A stretch of 12,323 nt of DNA. Origin: Acidobacteriota bacterium. Its GTDB lineage: Bacteria > Acidobacteriota > Thermoanaerobaculia > Multivoradales > JAHEKO01. Made by a program: the position numbers and the translations under genes. The stretch spans positions 4,091-16,413 of the forward strand of contig JAHEKO010000033.1 in NCBI GenBank assembly GCA_024638355.1, given 5' to 3'. Positions 5,659-12,323 of the stretch are shown in pieces. The notes beneath the pieces were generated by a model. The model did no database searches. It saw only the letters and a program-made list of their open reading frames with translations, and was not told where the DNA came from. The first letter of the stretch is position 1. Each line of letters begins with the position of its first letter.

Positions 5659-7827
5659 ATGAATCGCCTCGCGAACGAGAGCAGCCCCTACCTGCTGCTG
5701 CACAAGGACAATCCGGTCGACTGGTACCCGTGGGGCGAGGAGGCGCTGGCCCGCGCCCGTTCCGAGGATCGCCCCATCTTCCTGTCGGTCGGCTACTCGA
5801 CCTGCTACTGGTGCCACGTGATGGAGCGCGAGTCGTTCGCCGACGCCTCGATCGCCGAGATCATGAATCGGGAGTTCGTCAACATCAAGCTCGACCGCGA
5901 GGAGCGCCCCGATCTCGACGAGATCTACATGACCGCGACCCAGGTCCTGACCCAGCACGGCGGCTGGCCGAACTCCCTCTTCCTGACGCCGGAGCTCGAG
6001 CCGTTCTTCGCCGGCACCTACTTCCCGCCCGAAGATCGGCAGGGTCAACCGGGCTTTCGGCGGGTGTTGATGTCGATGGTCGAGGCGTGGAAGAGCCGCC
6101 GTCCGGAGGTGCTCGAACAGGCGCGGAGCGTCGCCGACGCGATCCGCAGGTACCTGGAAGAGCGCACCCAGCCGAGCGAGCGTCCGCCGGGGCGCGAAGC
6201 GGCACGCGAGTCGCTCGCCGCGCTCGAGCGTCGCTTCGACCCGCATTGGGGCGGCTTCGGCGGAGCGCCGAAGTTTCCGACACCCTCGAATCTGCTGCTG
6301 CTCGAGGAGTTCGTCGACGAGTCGCCGCGAGCGGCCGAGATGCTGACCGCGACGCTCGATCAGATGGCGCGCGGCGGAATCTACGACCGGCTCGGCGGCG
6401 GCTTCCACCGCTACGCCACGGACGCCGAGTGGAAGGTACCCCACTTCGAGAAGATGCTCTACGACAACGGCCTGCTGCTCGAGCTCTACGCGCGCGAGTG
6501 GGCGCGTGGCGGCGATCCGCAGATGGCGCGGGTCGCGCGCGAGACGATCGGCTTCCTCGAGCGTGAGCTGAGCGCCGAGGACGGGGCCTTTCGGGCGGCC
6601 CTCGACGCCGAGACCGAGGGAGTGGAGGGCGCCTTCTACGTGTGGACCGCCGACGAGCTGCGAGCGGTACTGGGAGCCGAGGATTTCGGCTTCCTGGCGC
6701 CGCTCTACGGCTTCGACCGGGCCCCCTTCTTCGAGGATCGACACTACGTGCTTCACCTGCCGCGGCCGCTGAGCGAGCAGGCCAGGAAGCGTCGCATCGG
6801 CCTCGAAGAGCTGGAGGCCCAGATCGAGCCCCTGCGCGCGCGGCTGTTCGAGGCGCGGGCCACGCGCCCGCCGGTGCATGCCGATCGCAAGGTCATGGCC
6901 GACTGGAACGGCATGGCGATCGCGGGTGTGGCGGAAGCCGGACGGCTGCTGCCCGAGCCGGCGTTCGTCGAGCGCGCCCGCCGAGCGGCGGAGGCGGTTC
7001 TCGCCCGGCTCCGTCCGCAGGGCGAGCTGCTGCACGTGCGCCGAGGGGAGGGCGAGCCGATTCGCGCCCTGCTGGCCGACTACGCCTTCCTGGTTCGCGG
7101 CCTGCTGGCGCTCCATCGCGCCGGCGCCGGCGAGCGCTGGCTCGAGCTCGGGGCCGAGCTTTCGGCCGAGCAGATCGACCGTCTCGAGGATCCCGAGGGC
7201 GGCTTCTTTACCGCCGCGGCCAGCGACGAGATCCTCTGCCGCAGCAAGGAGGTGTTCGACGGCGCCACTCCGGCGGCGAACGCCATCGCCGTGCTCAACC
7301 TGCTGGAGCTGGCCGAGCGCACCGGCGACGCCCGCTGGCGCGACGTCGCGGCGAAGAGCTTGCACGCCTTCACGGGTCTGATCGAGAAGCTGCCGGACGG
7401 GGCTCGAATGATGGCTCTCGCGGCCCGCAGGCTCGCCGCGCCGGCGGAGGAGGGGAGCCCGGAAGCCGCGGAGGACCCGGTCTCGGCCAGCGCTCGCTGG
7501 CGATCGGCGCCGGACGCCGAAGGCTGGCGCGGCTTCGAGGTCGTGCTCGGAATCGACGAGGGCTGGCACCTCTACGGGCGCTCGGTCGAGTCGCTGCCCC
7601 GGGTCGAGCTGCGCGCGTCCCGAGGCGAGCTGCGCGAGGTGGAGTATCCGAGCGGCGAGACGAATCGGCTCGAGCTGGACGGCGAGCCGCTCGAGACCTA
7701 TTCCGGCTCGATATCGATCATTGGGGAGGCGCGGGCCGGGGACGGACCGGTGACGCTCGAGGTGGCCTATCAGGCGTGCGAGACCGGCCGCTGCCTGGCT
7801 CCCCGGGTGGCGCTGTTGGAGCTTTAG
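5659..7827 (+). CDS. DUF255/YyaL thioredoxin-domain protein with C-terminal DsbD alpha-like domain
   Basis: This 722-residue protein has three parts. Residues 1-165 form the DUF255 thioredoxin-like domain, starting [24 protein letters not shown], with redox pair Cys49-Tyr-Trp-Cys52, then [18 protein letters not shown] and [11 protein letters not shown]. Residues about 190-590 form an alpha/alpha-barrel of the glycosidase-like type, with [30 protein letters not shown] and [11 protein letters not shown], as in YyaL and human SPATA20. Residues about 606-722 resemble the DsbD N-terminal domain: GWHLYG, a Tyr-Ser-Gly strand, and [12 protein letters not shown] with Cys707 and Cys712 as a likely redox pair. 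The first two parts are the usual protein (about 600-700 residues); the third is an extra. No signal peptide is visible, which is odd since DsbD domains normally work in the periplasm. AAGGAG lies seven bases before the ATG. The molecular function of the family is unsettled. Confidence 0.9.
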
Positions 7828-7857
7828 CCCACGCGTCGGATCGTGGCCGCGCAGCGG

Positions 7858-7863
7858 TATACT
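7858..7863 (+). promoter_or_regulatory. Candidate -10 box TATACT, giving a nearly leaderless nfeD transcript
   Basis: TATACT matches five of six bases of the TATAAT consensus and stands alone in a GC-rich stretch between two genes. The nfeD ATG at 7870 begins six bases after its end, almost where transcription would start. There is no Shine-Dalgarno sequence before that ATG, which fits a leaderless message. No good -35 box is visible. Confidence 0.38.
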
Positions 7864-7869
7864 GATTGC

Positions 7870-9225
7870 ATGACAAGGCGAGCCATGCGGCCCTTCCGAA
7901 TCGCCGCCGCGACGATGCTCGTTCTGTGCGCCTGGGCGGCGCTCGGCCAGGAGGCCGCCGCTCCCCTGGTCGTGCATCTCGAGGTGGATTCGATCATCCA
8001 TCCGGTGGCGGCGCAGTACATCGCCGAGGGCATCGAGGAGGCAGAGCGCTCGGGCGCCGCGGCCGTGGTGATCGAGCTGTCCACTCCGGGCGGGCTGCTG
8101 ACCTCGACGCGCGAGATCTTCACCGACATGCTCGGCTCCGAGGTGCCGGTCGTCGTCTACGTCGCGCCGAGCGGCGCGCAGGCGGCCTCGGCCGGCTTCT
8201 TCCTGCTGATGGCGGCCGACCTGGCGGCGATGGCTCCGGGAACCAATACCGGGGCGGCGACGCCGGTGATGGGCGACGGCCAGGACATCGAGGGCGCGAT
8301 GGGGGAGAAGGTCGAGCAGGACGCTCTGGCCACGATCCGCTCGCTGGCGACCCGCAACAACCGCAACGTCGAGCTGGCCGAGGCGGCGATCACCGAAAGC
8401 CGCTCCTACACCGCCGAAGAGGCGCTCGAAGGTAACCTGATCGAGGTCATCGCCGACGACCTGGAGTCGCTGCTCGCCCAGATCGACGGCCGCGAGGTGG
8501 CCGGAGGGGGAGACGAGCCGCGAACGGTCCAGACCGCGGACGCTCGGGTGCGGAGGGTCGAGATGGGGGCCTTCCAGAAGTTCCTGGCGACCATCGCCCA
8601 TCCCAACATCGCTTACATCCTGATGACGATCGGCGGGCTCGGGCTCTACTTCGAGCTGTCCAATCCCGGCGCGGTCCTGCCCGGCGTCGTCGGCGGCATC
8701 TGCCTCATCCTGGCGTTCTTCGCGCTCTCGGTGCTGCCGGTGAACTACGCCGGCGTCGCCCTCATCATCCTGGCGCTCATCTTCTTCATCGCCGAGGTCA
8801 AGATCGTCAGCTTCGGCCTGCTCACCGTGGCCGGCATCATCTCGCTGGTGATCGGCTCGCTCATGCTGTTCAAGAGTGCCGACCCGGCGATTCGCGTCAG
8901 CCTCGATGTGATCATGGGCGTCACGCTGTTCGCCGGCGTGGTGGTCGCGTTCCTCACCGTCATGGTCGTGCGAGCACACCGGCAGCAGGTGCGGACCGGC
9001 ACGGAAGGTCTGATCCGCGAGGAAGGCGTCGCGCGGACCCGGCTCGATCCGCGCGGCAAGGTCTTCGTGCACGGCGAGATCTGGGACGCCGTCAGCGACG
9101 ACGCGGTAGAGTCCGGGGACCCCATCGCCGTCGAGGCGGTGAACGGGATGTTGCTACGCGTCCGCGGCCTCAGCCGACGGCCGGCCGAGGCCGGCGACGG
9201 CGCCGACGCCGACGCTGAGGTTTGA
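7870..9225 (+). CDS. nfeD: NfeD family membrane serine protease (long form, ClpP-like domain)
   Basis: This 451-residue membrane protease belongs to the long NfeD class (archaeal PH1510 type), thought to cleave stomatin-like partners. A signal/anchor segment spans about residues 8-25. The ClpP-like domain follows, with STPGG (71-75), the nucleophile Ser107 in [20 protein letters not shown] (121-133), and a probable catalytic Lys147 in GEKVEQDA. Several membrane segments cover about 245-375. The C-terminal OB-fold NfeD domain ends the protein (about 378-435; [34 protein letters not shown]). I start at ATG 7870. An in-frame GTG at 7843 would add nine polar residues ahead of the signal and has no ribosome-binding site. 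An ATG at 7885 is also possible. The slipin gene follows 25 bases downstream, the classic pairing. A -10-like TATACT just upstream suggests its own promoter. Confidence 0.93.
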
Positions 9226-9250
9226 ACGGTTACTGAGACGAGGTGGCGTA

Positions 9251-10018
9251 ATGGGTATCTATGGTCTGGCCATCGTGGCTTTCCTGGCGATCATCGTGCT
9301 GACACGGTGGATCAACGTCCTCAACGAGTACGAGCGCGCGGTCACCTTCTGGCTGGGACGCCTGGGCCGGATCGCCAAGGGACCCGGGCTGGTCTTCATC
9401 TTCTGGCCGTTCGAGCGCATGGTGAAGATGTCGCTACGAACCGTCGTTCACGACGTGCCGTCGCAGGACGTCATCACCCGCGACAACGTCTCCGTCAAGG
9501 TCAACGCGGTGGTCTATTTCCGCGTGGTCGATCCGATGAAGGCGGTGGTCGAGGTCGAGAACTACCTGTTCGCGACCAGTCAGATCGCCCAGACCACCCT
9601 GCGTTCGGTGCTCGGTCAGGCCGATCTCGACGAGCTCCTCGCCGAGCGCGAGAAGCTCAATACCGAGCTCCAGTCGATCATCGACATGCACACCGATCCC
9701 TGGGGCATCAAGGTGTCGTCGGTCGAGGTCAAGCACGTCGACCTGCCGCAGGAGATGCAGCGGGCGATGGCGCGGCAGGCCGAGGCGGAGCGCGAGAAGC
9801 GGGCCAAGATCATCCACGCCCAAGGCGAGCTCCAGGCTTCCAAGCAGCTGGGCGAGGCGGCGGAGGTCATCTCGGCGAATCGCGTCACCCTTCAGCTGCG
9901 CTATCTGCAGACGCTGACCGAGATCGCCTCGGAGAAGAACTCGACCGTCATCTTCCCGCTGCCGATCGATCTCCTGACGGCGTTCGGTCCTCGGAGTGGT
10001 GAGGATCGAGGTTCGTGA
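9251..10018 (+). CDS. Slipin (stomatin-like SPFH/Band 7 protein)
   Basis: This 255-residue membrane scaffold protein belongs to the SPFH superfamily. One hydrophobic segment at residues 3-19 anchors it. The SPFH domain runs about 25-190, starting [31 protein letters not shown] and including [43 protein letters not shown] and [17 protein letters not shown], all typical of slipins. An Ala/Glu-rich coiled coil (about 175-220) precedes a hydrophobic tail, [12 protein letters not shown], the sort of segment that the partner NfeD protease cuts in archaeal homologues. GAGG lies upstream of the ATG. The gene directly follows nfeD, and its stop overlaps the GTG of the next gene (GTGA, 10015-10018). 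It probably forms membrane domains with NfeD; its exact role in this organism is unknown. Confidence 0.94.
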
Positions 10019-10747: not shown

Positions 10748-12247
10748 GTGGCCACGCATCCGATGACCACCCGGCTCCGCCGCGCGGCTCCGTGGGTCGT
10801 CGCGGTGCTGGGAGGCGCCGTCTGGGCTCTCTGCTTCGGACGCCAGGCGCTCGTCGTGGCGCCCTGGCTCGCGCTCGCGCCTCTGCTGCTTCTCCTCTCC
10901 CACCGCCGTGCCGCGTGGCTCGGTCTCGTTCATGGCGCCTCCTACTGGCTGCTCGCGGTGAGCTGGATCGGGCCCACGCTCGAGGTGTTCGGCGCCCTGT
11001 CGAGCTGGCTGTCGATCGTTCTGCTCCTCCTGCTTGCGCTCTACCTCGGCGCCTACTCCTGGGCGTTCGCGGGGCTGGGCCGCCGCCTCTGGCTGCGGGG
11101 CGGACCTACGGCGCTCTTCGGCCTGCCTTCGCTGTGGGTGGCGCTGGAATGGCTGCGAACCTACATCTGGACGGGCTTCCCCTGGAACCTCGCCGGCTAC
11201 GCCTGGGTCGAGGTTCCGGGCGCGCTCGAGCTGTCGGCCTGGATCGGCATCTACGGCGTCTCCTTCGTGGTGCTGCTGGCGAACACGGCGCTGGCGCGAG
11301 CCGTGGCGGCGTGGCGGCCGGCGATCGGGATCGCCGCGGTCGGCGTCTGCCTGAGCCTGTTGGCGTTCGGGGCGCGCTGGGCCGGCGGCCCGCCGCTCGA
11401 GGAGGCTCCGGGCCAGGCGCGAGAGATCCGCATCGTGCAGCCCAACATCCCGAATCTCACCGACTTCGACCCCGCCAAGCTGAGGCGCTTCTACGAACGG
11501 CTGATCTCGCTGTCGGAGGAGGCTTGCGACGTCGAAGGGGCTCTGCTGATCTGGCCCGAGTCCGCCGCCTGGCCGAAGACCGCGGAAGACCCCGAGCTGC
11601 GGGCCGACGTCGCCCGTCTCGCCGCGAGGGGCTGCGACGTGGTGCTCAACTCGGTGACGCGCGATGGCGACCGCGTCTACAACTCGGCGCTCCTGATCGG
11701 CGTCGACGGGATCGCCGGACGCTACGACAAGCGGCACCTGGTGCCCTACGGCGAGCACGTGCCGCTGGCCGACTGGCTGCCGTTCGTCGGCACGATCGCG
11801 CGCATGGCGGGACAGTTCACCCCGGGAGACGAAGCCCGGCTCATCGACTGGCAGAGCGAGCGGTTGGGCATGGCCATCTGCTTCGAGGTGATCTTCCCCA
11901 GCGAGGTGGCGGCCCTCGTTCGCGCCGGGGCCACCCTGCTGGCTACCGTTACCAACGACGCCTGGTACGGCGACACCTGGGCTCCCTGGCAACACTTCCG
12001 GATGGCGCGCTTCCGCGCCGCCGAGGCGCGCCGGCCGCTGGTGCGTGCGGCGATCACCGGCGTCTCGGGCGTGATCGGACCCGACGGTCGGGTGGTCCAG
12101 CGACTCGGCGTTTTCGAGCAGGGCATCCTGCGTGCGCGAGTCGCCGGCGCCACCGGCATCAGCCCGGCGGTGAGGGCCCCGTGGCTCGTGCCGCTCCTCT
12201 GCTCGCTGGCCGCGGCCTTTGCTATCCTTCGCGCGAGGCGAAGATGA
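10748..12247 (+). CDS. lnt: Apolipoprotein N-acyltransferase
   Basis: This inner membrane enzyme adds the third acyl chain to the N-terminal cysteine of lipoproteins, taking it from a phospholipid. The 499-residue protein has about six N-terminal membrane segments (residues about 15-210) with GFPWNLAGYAW (143-153). A nitrilase-like periplasmic domain (about 225-465) follows, and a final membrane helix (about 475-495). The catalytic triad is visible: Glu271 (WPESAAWP), Lys328 (YDKRHLVPYGE) and Cys378 (ICFEVIFP). The essential-loop residues YGEHVP and NDAWYG are present too. The GTG at 10748 is taken as start; ATG 10763 (MTTRLRR) is equally possible, and neither has a strong ribosome-binding site. 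The stop TGA overlaps the prfB start (ATGA, 12244-12247). Its presence implies a diderm cell with triacylated lipoproteins. Its preferred acyl donor is probably phosphatidylethanolamine, whose precursor pssA makes. Confidence 0.95.
   Translation: MATHPMTTRLRRAAPWVVAVLGGAVWALCFGRQALVVAPWLALAPLLLLLSHRRAAWLGLVHGASYWLLAVSWIGPTLEVFGALSSWLSIVLLLLLALYLGAYSWAFAGLGRRLWLRGGPTALFGLPSLWVALEWLRTYIWTGFPWNLAGYAWVEVPGALELSAWIGIYGVSFVVLLANTALARAVAAWRPAIGIAAVGVCLSLLAFGARWAGGPPLEEAPGQAREIRIVQPNIPNLTDFDPAKLRRFYERLISLSEEACDVEGALLIWPESAAWPKTAEDPELRADVARLAARGCDVVLNSVTRDGDRVYNSALLIGVDGIAGRYDKRHLVPYGEHVPLADWLPFVGTIARMAGQFTPGDEARLIDWQSERLGMAICFEVIFPSEVAALVRAGATLLATVTNDAWYGDTWAPWQHFRMARFRAAEARRPLVRAAITGVSGVIGPDGRVVQRLGVFEQGILRARVAGATGISPAVRAPWLVPLLCSLAAAFAILRARRR
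12223..12228 (+). promoter_or_regulatory. Possible -10 box TATCCT ahead of prfB
   Basis: TATCCT lies in the last codons of lnt and ends 15 bases before the prfB ATG. It would give prfB its own short-leader transcript alongside read-through from lnt. No clear -35 hexamer is visible. Confidence 0.22.
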
Positions 12248-12323
12248 TCACGGCGGAGACCCAGCAACAGCTCGACGAATTGGCGCAGCGCCTGGACCAC
12301 CTCAGGAGGTTTCTTTGACGAGG
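12244..12323 (+). CDS. prfB: Peptide chain release factor 2, 5' end, with programmed +1 frameshift; cut by window edge
   Basis: Release factor 2 ends translation at UGA and UAA codons. Only the start is here. The zero frame reads 24 codons, MITAETQQQLDELAQRLDHLRRFL, then an in-frame TGA at 12316-12318. This is the layout of bacterial prfB (E. coli has 25 codons, ending LRGYL, before its TGA). The helix matches the RF2 N-terminus in style (QQLDELAQRLDHLRRFL). After the slip the +1 frame reads GAC GAG, giving Asp-Glu, as in the family where Asp follows the shift. The ATG has GCGAGG five bases upstream and overlaps the lnt stop. The rest of the protein lies beyond the window, so the assignment rests on the recoding site plus the N-terminal helix. 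This is not a pseudogene or a short peptide gene. Confidence 0.88.
12304..12319 (+). other. prfB: Programmed +1 ribosomal frameshift site of prfB
   Basis: AGGAGG (12304-12309) is an internal Shine-Dalgarno-like element; three bases (TTT) separate it from the slippery codon CTT (12313-12315). The stop TGA follows with C as the next base, a poor termination context. The E. coli site is AGGGGGTATCTTTGAC, with the same spacing. When release factor 2 is scarce, the ribosome pauses at TGA, slips one base on CTT and reads GAC, so the factor controls its own synthesis. Confidence 0.92.

Follow-up and report, generated by a model that had tools for sequence, protein, structure and literature searches.

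The DNA analysed here (hereafter the window, 12,323 nucleotides) corresponds to positions 4091-16413 of contig C10, and it stops at position 12323 because the contig, which is 16413 bases long, ends there. Its right-hand end carries the lnt gene followed on the same strand by the opening of prfB, the gene for release factor 2 (RF2), a protein that ends translation. The features of this region, all on the + strand, are the following:

10748..12247, + strand: lnt (apolipoprotein N-acyltransferase), upstream of prfB; its TGA overlaps the prfB ATG as ATGA (12244-12247)
12235..12238, + strand: GAGG, five bases 5' of the prfB ATG, a possible initiation Shine-Dalgarno (SD) sequence
12244..12318, + strand: zero-frame opening of prfB, with 24 sense codons from the ATG (MITAETQQQLDELAQRLDHLRRFL) and an in-frame TGA, read from the sequence
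12304..12309, + strand: internal SD-like AGGAGG, three bases 5' of CTT, based on the sequence and on shuffles, with identical spacing in 50 order-level loci
12310..12312, + strand: TTT codon separating the SD-like element from the slippery CTT; this TTT would sit in the E site
12313..12316, + strand: slippery CTT-T, comprising the P-site Leu codon and the first base of the TGA, based on the sequence and on the order-level loci
12316..12318, + strand: premature, RF2-specific stop TGA, codon 25 counted from the ATG at 12244; the next base is C (12319)
12317..12323, + strand: start of the +1 frame, GAC (Asp25), which runs on in contig C333 into RF2

Further upstream, the window holds a gene for a DUF255 thioredoxin-fold protein (Thioredox_DsbH) with a DsbD_N domain at its C-terminus (5659-7827). 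This is followed by a pair at 7843-10018, an NfeD1b-type membrane protease gene and then an SPFH/Band 7 (slipin-like) gene, after which come a SPOR-domain gene and lnt.

The original prediction described a 24-codon open frame ending in TGA and an AGGAGG-TTT-CTT-TGA-C arrangement with the exact spacing of the prfB recoding site. Both descriptions agree with the sequence to the base (ATG 12244, TGA 12316-12318), and the corresponding 16-base pattern, RGGRGGNNNCTTTGAC, has a single occurrence in the window and is absent from all of 200 dinucleotide shuffles of it. In the 4.27-Mb genome, the pattern is found in two places, which are overlapping contig ends with the same DNA and hence a single locus, and a backwards control version of the pattern gave no match in the same genome. 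The arrangement shares with the E. coli type of prfB frameshift its SD-like element, three-base spacer, CTT-TGA-C, position near codon 25 and RF2 in the +1 frame. It differs in that the E. coli type consensus is near AGGGGG with TAT before CTT, whereas the window has AGGAGG and TTT, both of which also occur in relatives; furthermore, the TGA is codon 25 in the window and, as given in a passage of PMC12421855, codon 26 in E. coli.

The +1 frame can be followed beyond the window, as the final 121 bases of C10 are also the first 121 of contig C333 (reversed), this being the longest exact overlap, and these bases include the ATG. C333 alone therefore carries the whole of prfB from its ATG, and no joining of contigs is needed. 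Reading 24 codons from this ATG, shifting once by +1 at CTT-T and continuing for another 345 codons yields an RF2 of 369 amino acids, with SPF at residue 201 and GGQ at residue 246. Rightward extension from 12317 was the check proposed with the original prediction, and the frame neither closes quickly nor encodes something other than RF2. The 369-residue protein scores 501.6 bits against the prfB model TIGR00020 (cut-off 370), and a 343-residue piece from C333 scores 500.4 bits against this model and 276 and 273 bits against RF1 models. The Pfam PCRF and RF-1 domains are both matched, and RF2 chains are the top matches among solved structures. Named database proteins from a Thermoanaerobaculia bacterium are 72-77 percent identical to this RF2; among named genome loci, the two best belong to an Acidobacteria MAG (62 percent) and a Thermoanaerobaculia MAG (61 percent). 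The host is thus probably a member of the class Thermoanaerobaculia in the Acidobacteriota. Elsewhere in the genome, the prfB model finds a full-length match below the cut-off (284.7 bits, C683) and a short match (33.6 bits, C351), which we take, by score, to be a putative prfA and a putative ArfB-like protein, respectively.

Conservation was assessed in 59 genomes of the same order, our own included. Of these, 49 possess a prfB above the cut-off, yielding 50 loci since one genome contributes two, and the ten genomes lacking such a match were left out. CTTTGA at the junction, with an open RF2 frame behind it, is present in 50 of 50 loci (49 of 49 when our own is set aside; relatives G001-G058), the TGA itself being invariant by construction of the search. 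The SD hexamer is most commonly CGGGGG (28 loci), followed by CGGAGG (13), AGGGGG (5), AGGAGG (3, including the window) and CGGCGG (1), and the codon before CTT is TAT in 42 loci, TTC in three, TAC in three and TTT in two. An ATG lies 24 codons upstream in 43 of the 50. The base after the TGA is C in only 21 loci, A in 15 and G in 14, so that this position varies within the order. The genome G038 carries two over-cut-off prfB loci (on C93 and C72), one of which encodes a protein only 49 percent identical to the RF2 of the window; the contamination listed for G038 is 9 percent.

These loci also bear on whether an error of sequencing or assembly introduced the stop into a gene that truly occupies one frame. 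The window does stop five bases past the TGA, where its contig runs out, and the genome is fragmented into 696 contigs. However, the same bases are present on C333 (though assemblers can copy an overlap), and the CTTTGA junction occurs at the same place in the 49 other order-level loci, a degree of conservation that makes such an error exceedingly improbable.

The survey was extended to 119 genomes of the phylum, our own included, of which 110 possess an over-cut-off prfB and nine, lacking one, were left out; many of the genomes without such a match, in this set and in the order-level set, are incomplete or split. To count as a site, a locus had to show CTT plus a stop, GG or GAG within the seven bases 5' of the codon next to CTT on its upstream side, a start between 18 and 45 codons upstream, and a +1 frame that stays open; the search covered CTT-type slippery sites and not those of the TTT type. 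By this rule it is present in 100 of the 110 genomes, namely six shared with the order-level set and 94 of the 104 others, and in all 94 of the latter the stop is TGA, even though the search was open to TGA, TAA and TAG. An earlier, stricter SD pattern had returned 60 sites, 43 loci without a site and one unparsed locus among the 104; it missed GGGAG- and GGAGC-type elements, hence the recount under the looser rule, in which 94 loci had the site and ten did not. The site is the rule in this phylum, apparently the Acidobacteriota, as it is in most of the bacterial genomes surveyed in PMC12421855, passages of which describe the prfB frameshift mechanism and report a premature stop in 8,164 of 12,753 genomes (64 percent). 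The main texts of PMC12421855 and PMC13245932 contain no mention of Acidobacteri- or of lnt.

On this sequence evidence, the end of the window is almost certainly the 5' end of prfB with its canonical autoregulatory +1 programmed ribosomal frameshift. By analogy with the prfB family, slippage and RF2-dependent feedback would be expected in this organism. Ribosomes would start at 12244, read 24 codons and reach the UGA while CUU occupies the P site. With plentiful RF2, termination at the UGA would release a 24-residue peptide; with scarce RF2, the ribosome would pause, AGGAGG would pair with the 16S tail, and the Leu tRNA would slip from CUU to UUU, with translation in the +1 frame yielding the 369-residue RF2. 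The site is intact-looking and ordinary, with no novelty, and the mechanism is already known as a means for many bacteria to set their RF2 level. For annotation purposes, the gene would be complete and autoregulated, not broken.

The 16S tails of four order relatives from other families end in CACCTCCTTTCTAAG, which includes CCTCCTT. A 16S match was found neither in our own genome nor in its 17 same-family relatives, so that the anti-SD is documented solely for the order's other families. Computed pairing with this tail amounts to -11.5 kcal/mol for AGGAGG, as against -10.7 kcal/mol for the E. coli-like AGGGGG. The suggestion that AGGAGG is possibly the stronger of the two is thus borne out in computation, but the gain is small and exists on paper only.

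It had also been anticipated that automatic annotation would probably start the gene downstream or call it broken. The best 120 of 7999 scored proteins were sorted by eye from their first 36 residues. Among these 120, 115 lack the pre-shift peptide: three (P0020, P0074 and P0116) bear a long, wrong-frame extension in the +1 frame, and 112, their GGQ falling no later than residue 234, have a shorter N-terminus, although some of these begin upstream of the site in the +1 frame. The zero-frame pre-shift peptide is retained in P0011, P0018, P0050, P0064 and P0120, which are the five NCBI-named entries among the best 120; NCBI-sourced but unnamed entries in the same set, for example P0002, are shortened. 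The expectation accordingly holds for 115 of these 120 proteins but fails for the five NCBI-named records. Similar defects are recorded in passages of PMC3711429, where 17 of 428 prfB genes are unannotated or called pseudogenes and some RF2 entries are without their N-terminus. Catalogue entries for relatives are thus mostly devoid of the true RF2 N-terminus.

The 112 shorter N-termini in this set of 120, of which 95 place GGQ at residue 207, could also be read as a sign that most RF2 synthesis begins at a start codon beyond the site, the 24-codon frame being a leader or nothing. We consider this very improbable, since the annotated downstream starts, at M-x-x-PGFW, resemble gene-caller defaults, and solved RF2 chains possess about 27-30 more N-terminal residues. 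Moreover, conservation across the order extends to the zero-frame helix and the recoding site, neither of which would be needed with a downstream start. A start at 12244 followed by frameshifting is the reading retained here.

The position of lnt upstream of prfB on the same strand is shared by 44 of the 50 order-level loci, our own included, and 21 of these 44 show the ATGA overlap, ten of them from genus g11. This raises the question as to whether the supply of RF2 may influence prfB at two points, namely the internal UGA and the lnt stop within ATGA, likewise an RF2-specific UGA, the latter affecting re-initiation onto prfB. We regard such a double effect as unlikely. One of two congeners (G002) has the ATGA overlap and the other (G001) does not, and other four-base stop/start overlaps of neighbouring genes occur in the window (ATGA at 582-585 and GTGA at 10015-10018); hence, the lnt/prfB geometry may mean nothing. 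No open-licence literature on prfB, lnt and translational coupling was found.

The ten over-cut-off phylum genomes without the site (of 110) make up the whole of family f33 in the sample (loci L189, L202, L209, L223, L226, L228, L234, L235, L236 and L240), and in 10 of 10 prfB lies in one frame. The N-termini of these proteins match named Geothrix and Holophagaceae loci, and by sequence the family resembles this group; it belongs to the same phylum and has an orthologous RF2, but differs from the window in lacking the site throughout. CTT plus a stop was also encountered in two named Geothrix-group loci (L065 and L070), as chance matches outside the recoding context that were not counted. A search of open-licence literature on release factor 2, frameshift and Geothrix found none.

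PMC12421855 links disappearance of the site to heavy use of UGA as a stop. In PMC13245932, UGA usage is put at 31 percent for site-bearing species and at about 40 percent for the others, with no significant link between site loss and UGA usage once ancestry is corrected for. Family f33, the sole family having lost the site in our phylum sample, did not show higher UGA usage, at 54.5 percent of 156 called genes versus 60.2 percent of 103 in site-keeping order members (both small samples). Our own genome, with 69.1 percent GC in 168 kb sampled, uses TGA for 53.1 percent of 130 called stops and keeps the site nonetheless. These values come from a simple long-ORF caller, a looser setting of which gives 57.3 percent TGA of 131 for our own genome, so that differences of a few percent mean little. 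The survey thus adds a small data point to the live dispute between PMC12421855 and PMC13245932 over site loss and UGA usage.
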